DNA from: Hoeflea sp.
Lineage (GTDB): Bacteria > Pseudomonadota > Alphaproteobacteria > Rhizobiales > Rhizobiaceae
Assembly: GCF_014359905.1 (NCBI RefSeq)
Contig: NZ_JACIYP010000010.1
Coordinates: 22,456-86,455 of the forward strand
Direction: 5' to 3'
Length of the DNA: 64,000 nt
The notes beneath the pieces are model-generated. The model made no database searches, was not told the DNA's origin, and was given only the letters and a program-made list of their open reading frames with translations. The translations under genes were made by a program, and so were the position numbers. Of the stretch, positions 45,869 to 46,389 are shown in pieces; position 1 is the stretch's first letter; the number at the start of each line of letters is the position of its first letter.

Positions 45869-45943
45869 GACGCTCTTCCATTTCGAAAACGGGTGATCCA
45901 GTGCGGCGGCCGATGGATTTCGGCCGCCGCGGAGGCAAGTGTG

Positions 45944-46147
45944 TCAGCCGCAGCCGATCCCGCCGCAATTGGCCCGCGTTGCCGCCGCAAGCTCCGAGAG
46001 CTTGTTGATGTCGTCGGCGCTCATTGCGGCGATGGCTTCCTTGTTCGCCATCAGCGCGCGGATCGGCCCCGCTCCAATGGCTTCGGCGACTTTCTCGATG
46101 TCCCTGCCCGACAGATGGGACAGGTCCGGTGCATCTCTGGATCCCAT
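45944..46147 (-). CDS. Candidate RiPP precursor peptide (67 aa)
   Basis: MGSRDAPDLSHLSGRDIEKVAEAIGAGPIRALMANKEAIAAMSADDINKLSELAAATRANCGGIGCG; RBS AGGGAG 7 nt upstream of ATG 46147; 75 bp upstream of and co-oriented with the radical SAM gene; helical leader and Gly/Cys C-terminus. Confidence 0.8.
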   Translation of the reverse strand: MGSRDAPDLSHLSGRDIEKVAEAIGAGPIRALMANKEAIAAMSADDINKLSELAAATRANCGGIGCG

Positions 46148-46257
46148 ATTTCGCTCCCTGTGTTCGATGAACCTGGATCTGGGACCGGTTCGAACAGCCC
46201 GGACCCATTGCCATGGTAGCATGCCTCAAAGGCAAAATAAACCTGAAGTAGCAAAAT

Positions 46258-46279
46258 ATTATAAATGCAACCAATTGCA
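46258..46279 (-). promoter_or_regulatory. -10-like box and adjacent inverted repeat upstream of the RiPP cassette
   Basis: TATAAT on minus strand (46258-46263) in an AT-rich patch; TGCAA-ttgg-TTGCA at 46266-46279; no good -35 seen. Confidence 0.4.
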
Positions 46280-46389
46280 GACTGCCCGTTGAATCGGGCC
46301 GCCCCGCAGGAACGGCGGCGCAGAATATCAACAAGGGGGGGCGGGATGCAGGGCGCGTGGAAGGGCTCGGCTACCGGCAGCGGCGGCAG

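Follow-up and report, generated by a model that had tools for sequence, protein, structure and literature searches.

Organization of the locus

The window, that is the whole stretch of 64,000 nucleotides of Hoeflea sp. DNA that was analysed, contains a gene for a short peptide precursor and, next to it, a gene for a radical-SAM/SPASM peptide maturase, both in the same orientation (Table 1).

Table 1. Features of the precursor/maturase locus and their positions in the window
Feature	Position	Strand	Remarks
Precursor peptide gene, 67 aa	45944..46147	minus	ATG at 46147, stop 45944-45946; leader 1-58 followed by a Cys/Gly tail
Predicted core or modification site, ANCGGIGCG	45947..45973	minus	invariant across three genomes
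GGGAG ribosome-binding site of the precursor	46154..46158	minus	from reading of the sequence; 6 nt before the ATG
Hairpin of 11 bp between precursor and maturase	45903..45930	minus	z -3.1 for the whole spacer
Radical-SAM/SPASM peptide maturase, 479 aa	44429..45868	minus	CX3CX2C at 111-118; CX2CX5CX2C SPASM variant

The translation of the precursor gene is MGSRDAPDLSHLSGRDIEKVAEAIGAGPIRALMANKEAIAAMSADDINKLSELAAATRANCGGIGCG, with ...RANCGGIGCG at its C-terminal end, before the stop codon. As a preliminary description of this DNA had remarked, the sequence before the tail is rich in Ala, Leu, Ile and Lys, and the only two Cys of the peptide, at positions 61 and 66, lie in a C-x4-C arrangement within the last seven residues. 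The interval 45944-45970, proposed there for the core, spans NCGGIGCG and the stop codon; with the Ala that its title included, the motif takes the position given in Table 1. In a single-sequence AlphaFold model (mean pLDDT 59, which is low) helices span residues 14-33, 36-40 and 44-61 of the peptide, and the tail is irregular. Of the 746 small ORFs of the window, 5 have a tail that contains two Cys and two Gly, a chance rate of about 0.7%; a Cys/Gly tail alone is thus not rare, and the precursor is judged real because it is conserved. No match to the nif11 leader was found in the precursor, and a tblastn search of plasmids with it returned ABC-transporter matches only (E 0.6). In addition, an exact-pattern match in IMG/VR to NCGGIGCG followed by a stop (L020) was rejected, as it lies out of frame inside a phage gene.

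The spacer between the two genes is 75 bases long. In the homologous locus of Roseovarius, described below, the spacer contains a strong hairpin in the same place (z -3.1) and of unrelated sequence. Since the spacer hairpin is not followed by a run of T, it is probably an mRNA-end or attenuation element, which would probably keep the precursor in excess over the enzyme. Neither an Rfam match nor a sigma-70 consensus was found in the region. Upstream of both precursors, AT-rich stretches (window 46230-46290; L018:4900-4945) share TTGGTTGCATTT, perhaps a common regulatory site.

A maturase outside the curated families

The radical-SAM cluster of the maturase is formed by C111, C115 and C118, and the SPASM region provides seven further Cys (349, 367, 407, 410, 416, 419 and 438), all of which, like the radical-SAM Cys, are kept in an alignment of four homologs. 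Pfam detects the Radical_SAM domain (1.6e-16), with a SPASM match just below the cut-off. Among the NCBIfam models, the top one is PapB (NF047865; 178.8 bits, 1.6e-52, cut-off 340), followed by QhpD (TIGR03906; 157.2 bits, 5.5e-46, cut-off 453), NlpM (149.7 bits, 1e-43, cut-off 518.7) and SCIFF (TIGR03974; 147.3 bits, 6.3e-43, cut-off 425). GggB (NF050038) scores 86 bits against a cut-off of 650, and none of the five cut-offs is reached. In other words, as judged from these profiles the enzyme is related to the PapB, QhpD, NlpM and SCIFF maturases and is a member of none of them. The AlphaFold model of the maturase is poor (mean pLDDT 46). A profile alignment makes the solved SCIFF maturase CteB (5wgg) colinear with residues 58-449, and the N-terminal 95 residues or so probably constitute an RRE-like peptide-binding domain.

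An alignment of 23 enzymes shows two features that distinguish the family, here with the distant relative discussed below included. First, the last SPASM step is CX2C and not CX3C. Second, all four members have Leu at residue 369, two places past Cys 367 of the SPASM region, while the corresponding position is occupied by Arg in QhpD, NlpM and the ferritin- or halogenase-linked enzymes (R370-R373 in QhpD numbering) and by Gln in the SCIFF maturase. PapB reportedly depends on Arg372, a residue suggested to sit close to the carboxylate of the acceptor (PMC9413430). From the numbering and the motif, PapB being outside the alignment, we infer that this residue is equivalent to the Arg at 370-373 of QhpD. 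The presence of Leu369 instead of Arg fits a tail that has no Asp or Glu.

Distribution and genomic setting of the cassette

Carriers of the precursor/maturase unit are two Hoeflea species, one Roseovarius and, probably, a further proteobacterium that is more distant and is discussed below; with about 2,000 genomes searched, the family is very rare. Specifically, the maturase occurs in 2 of the 18 genomes of the genus Hoeflea, and at the thresholds used, searches of the family (299 genomes), the class (385), the order (398) and the Roseovarius family (397) gave no additional copies. Viral contigs gave no match to the maturase or its alignment. The precursor of Hoeflea M_23 does not differ from that of the window, and its maturase is 95% identical; in Roseovarius sp. 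A-2 the maturase (L003) is 60% and the precursor (L018:4986-5186) 73% identical, each of the two genes lying near a contig end. The remaining maturase matches are QhpD, NlpM, SCIFF and ferritin- or halogenase-linked enzymes and fall outside the Hoeflea/Roseovarius family. Matches in Methylocystis (L048) and Actinomyces (L046), which have the CX2CX5CX2C SPASM form and group near the family, were set aside, no adjoining ORF with a Cys/Gly tail having been found.

In 14 of the 16 Hoeflea genomes in which adoK was found, mutS lies upstream of it with no radical-SAM gene between them; in the two carriers the pair sits at this mutS-adoK site. In Roseovarius it occupies an unrelated site, between genes that we take, from reading their sequences, to be those of cytochrome-c maturation. 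The two Roseovarius contig ends, that of the precursor and that of the maturase, carry the same 17-bp sequence with one mismatch, inverted and starting with TTAA. Such ends are the mark of an insertion sequence, and precursor and maturase were therefore probably once adjacent there, in the order seen in Hoeflea. As nothing else is common to the Hoeflea and Roseovarius sites, the unit is precursor plus maturase. The comparison of the sites indicates that this two-gene cassette is horizontally acquired and of a mobile format.

Some observations were made alongside on mobile elements and related genes. The Roseovarius sp. A-2 insertion sequence (L018:5187-5312, L003:1-135), with inverted ends CCCG(G/A)ATAATTCA, appears to separate the precursor from the maturase; it is accompanied by a TTAA target duplication, within which the stop codon of the precursor lies. 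On a Methylocystis parvus plasmid, a 376-residue radical-SAM protein with a CX2CX5CX2C SPASM (L048:2498-3625) is encoded beside TniB/TniQ-type transposition genes, with no precursor recognised. Other plasmids (L011, L043, L045, L051) carry QhpD-like radical-SAM genes linked to ferritin-like proteins and, in the rhizobia among them, also to tryptophan 7-halogenases, a separate and recurrent neighbourhood. Finally, in Acetoanaerobium noterae an unannotated 49-residue SCIFF-like Cys-rich precursor (L047:2003-2152) lies upstream of a SCIFF-like maturase.

Selection on the tail

The Cys/Gly tail is under purifying selection. When the window is compared with Roseovarius, the ten C-terminal codons encode identical residues (10/10), with six synonymous and no nonsynonymous changes, while the 57-codon leader has 21 synonymous and 18 nonsynonymous changed codons. 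If the 18 amino-acid changes were placed at random, the whole tail would be spared about 3% of the time, so that tail identity by itself is modest evidence; considered jointly with the pattern of codon changes and the neighbouring peptide maturase gene, the sequences make a convincing case that the conservation of the tail is real.

These results bear on the main proposals of the preliminary description. Its division into leader and core and its link to a radical-SAM maturase are strongly supported, in that a SPASM enzyme is encoded next to the precursor, the two are co-inherited, the tail is better conserved than the leader and the distant relative probably has a second variant of the tail. 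Homologs of the leader with tails devoid of Cys and Gly were sought, and every homolog found has a Cys/Gly tail. Precursor and maturase are almost certainly a real pair.

A candidate distant relative

A phylum-wide search gave one further maturase, G1110, from another proteobacterial class (48 genomes). It is 29-30% identical to the family, has the CWANxICxSCxG...FCxVQK C-terminus in common with it, and joins it in the tree with support 93/96, on a long branch flagged as possibly false. Directly downstream of this maturase, on the same strand and with a good ribosome-binding site, lies a 62-residue ORF, MDEQSKTKAVGELARAG...KAASSAKNFCCSGVG, with the end ...KNFCCSGVG. Its leader and that of the Hoeflea precursor are about 24% identical. 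After an Asn, both tails have C-x-G-[I/V]-G, that is N-CGGIG-CG in one case and N-FC-CSGVG in the other, which suggests, at the sequence level, that C-x-G-[I/V]-G is a core common to the Hoeflea/Roseovarius and the distant peptides. As only two close precursor sequences and one distant candidate are available, the motif rests on two independent tails. The C-x4-C tail proposed earlier accordingly stands for Hoeflea and Roseovarius and, given the ending NFCCSGVG, is probably no constant of the wider family.

The link of the distant ORF to the family is probable and not proven, because tails of this kind occur by chance at the rate of about 0.7% given above. The alternative, to which we give a minor though real weight, is that the NFCCSGVG ORF arose by chance or encodes an unrelated precursor; the family would then be confined to Hoeflea and Roseovarius, and the common motif would be coincidental. 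The low leader identity and the long branch of the distant maturase, besides the background of two-Cys/two-Gly tails among small ORFs, speak for it, while the position and strand of the ORF directly after the maturase, its good ribosome-binding site, its Ala/Lys/Glu-rich leader with the tail at the extreme C-terminus and the CWANxICxSCxG signature common to both maturases speak against it. This alternative bears on the extent of the family only and is compatible with thioether formation.

Predicted chemistry of the tail

The reading that we consider probable is that of a minimal rSAM RiPP, namely a two-gene cassette whose product would carry a Cys thioether to the Ile/Val or to a Gly of the tail; that at least one Cys thioether forms in the tail seems likely to the same degree. 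PapB, QhpD and the SCIFF maturases are established Cys-thioether-forming enzymes (PMC8172795). By analogy, the helical leader would bind to the N-terminal maturase domain, which is colinear with CteB and would position the tail for attack by the 5'-deoxyadenosyl radical; the enzyme would then abstract a hydrogen from a tail residue and join that carbon to a Cys sulfur, with the SPASM clusters carrying the oxidation, two hydrogens being lost per bridge. The favoured bridge would link the Cys of the C-x-G-[I/V]-G motif with the third residue downstream, that is C61-I64, or C58-V61 in the distant relative, giving an i to i+3 four-residue ring as in streptosactin, which sets a precedent for joining Cys to the alpha-carbon of residue i+3 (PMC8172795). 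The specific assignment C61-I64, drawn from this analogy, is tentative. An alpha bridge like that of streptosactin is not favoured by ancestry, because QhpD, PapB and CteB make non-alpha bridges. As a second choice, a Cys may be joined to the alpha-carbon of a Gly, the C-terminal Gly67 included, whose free carboxylate could replace the Asp/Glu acceptor of PapB and QhpD. C66 might take part in a second bridge or stay a free thiol. The cassette has no dedicated protease, exporter or immunity gene, so that release of the tail would fall to host peptidases, unless the modified peptide acts inside the cell.

SPASM enzymes catalyse many reactions, and this range leaves room for the tail to be changed with no Cys bridge, by epimerisation, dehydrogenation, a C-C or C-O bond or backbone oxidation at Gly, Ile or Asn, the Cys serving as ligands or thiols. 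The invariant Asn60, Ile64 and Gly are candidate sites for such changes, and the tail is unlike the substrates of PapB and QhpD in having no acidic acceptor. However, the nearest characterised relatives by sequence form thioethers, and the tail has no aromatic residue, which excludes cyclophane chemistry there; we regard a modification of this kind as rather unlikely. Less likely still is that the radical-SAM enzyme shapes the tail into a small metal- or cluster-binding peptide or an intracellular redox cofactor comparable to PQQ or mycofactocin. A Gly-rich C-terminus containing two Cys, a very short core and a two-gene format found at unrelated sites with no export, protease or immunity function would suit such a product, but neither a partner dehydrogenase nor any enzyme that would use the cofactor is linked to the cassette, and its patchy distribution is unlike that of a core cofactor.

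Comparison with known systems

The pair has the general features of a radical-SAM/SPASM RiPP, in that a CX3CX2C and a SPASM Cys set adjoin a short peptide gene, precursor and maturase are co-conserved and the C-terminal core is conserved. With the SCIFF ranthipeptides of Clostridia (CteA-CteB) it shares a small precursor beside a SPASM maturase, the CxxCWAxxxC motif and Cys donors in the C-terminal region; it differs from them in having two Cys in a nine-residue tail, against about six Cys in 45 residues, and in the last SPASM step, CX2C instead of CX3C. SCIFF also has no Asp/Glu acceptor, the acceptor being Thr (PMC8172795, PMC8326336). The radical-SAM/SPASM layout is likewise that of the ranthipeptide freyrasin (PapA/PapB), but PapA has C-x3-D motifs with an essential carboxylate, whereas the Hoeflea tail has neither Asp nor Glu, and at the position that probably matches the required Arg372 of PapB the Hoeflea enzyme has Leu. 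QhpD, of the QhpD/QhpC system of quinohemoprotein amine dehydrogenase, is a related maturase with the same Cys framework; it acts, however, on a dehydrogenase subunit in its own operon, whereas the Hoeflea neighbours are mutS and adoK with no qhp operon, and its Arg is replaced by Leu369. The likeness to streptosactin (GggA/GggB) concerns the core only, which is short with Cys to i+3 bridges (Cys25-Ser28 and Cys31-Gly34 in streptosactin), while the similarity of the maturase is weaker and GggA/GggB belong to a streptococcal quorum-controlled cluster with a protease. Finally, Nif11-type/NlpM systems have a related maturase, unlike Hoeflea combined with a nif11 leader and, in NlpM, with the Arg.

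None of the curated families in NCBIfam and Pfam covers the precursor or the maturase, and the literature searched contained no RiPP paper on Hoeflea, Roseovarius or Magnetococcus. Apparently, then, this is an undescribed and rare family of peptide natural products. What is known is the radical-SAM/SPASM RiPP with a Cys core; what is new lies in this particular core, in a SPASM variant without the Arg and in a mobile format of two genes. A bolder and more doubtful proposal is that of a new RiPP class defined by a C-x-G-[I/V]-G core at the C-terminus. An enzyme of the QhpD/CteB type lacking the Arg would here make the thioether, either to an unactivated carbon of Ile/Val or to the C-terminal Gly beside the free carboxylate, and the product of the mobile two-gene cassette would be a tiny macrocycle.

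Concluding remarks

The alphaproteobacterial pair, with its single precursor and single enzyme, its two Cys and a core of about nine residues, forms a complete radical-SAM peptide system of very small size. As the tail offers no Asp/Glu acceptor and the enzyme lacks the Arg, its chemistry is predicted to differ from that of PapB and QhpD. The Hoeflea pair is a clean and easily tested case for the question of what sets the acceptor carbon in thioether-forming SPASM enzymes.
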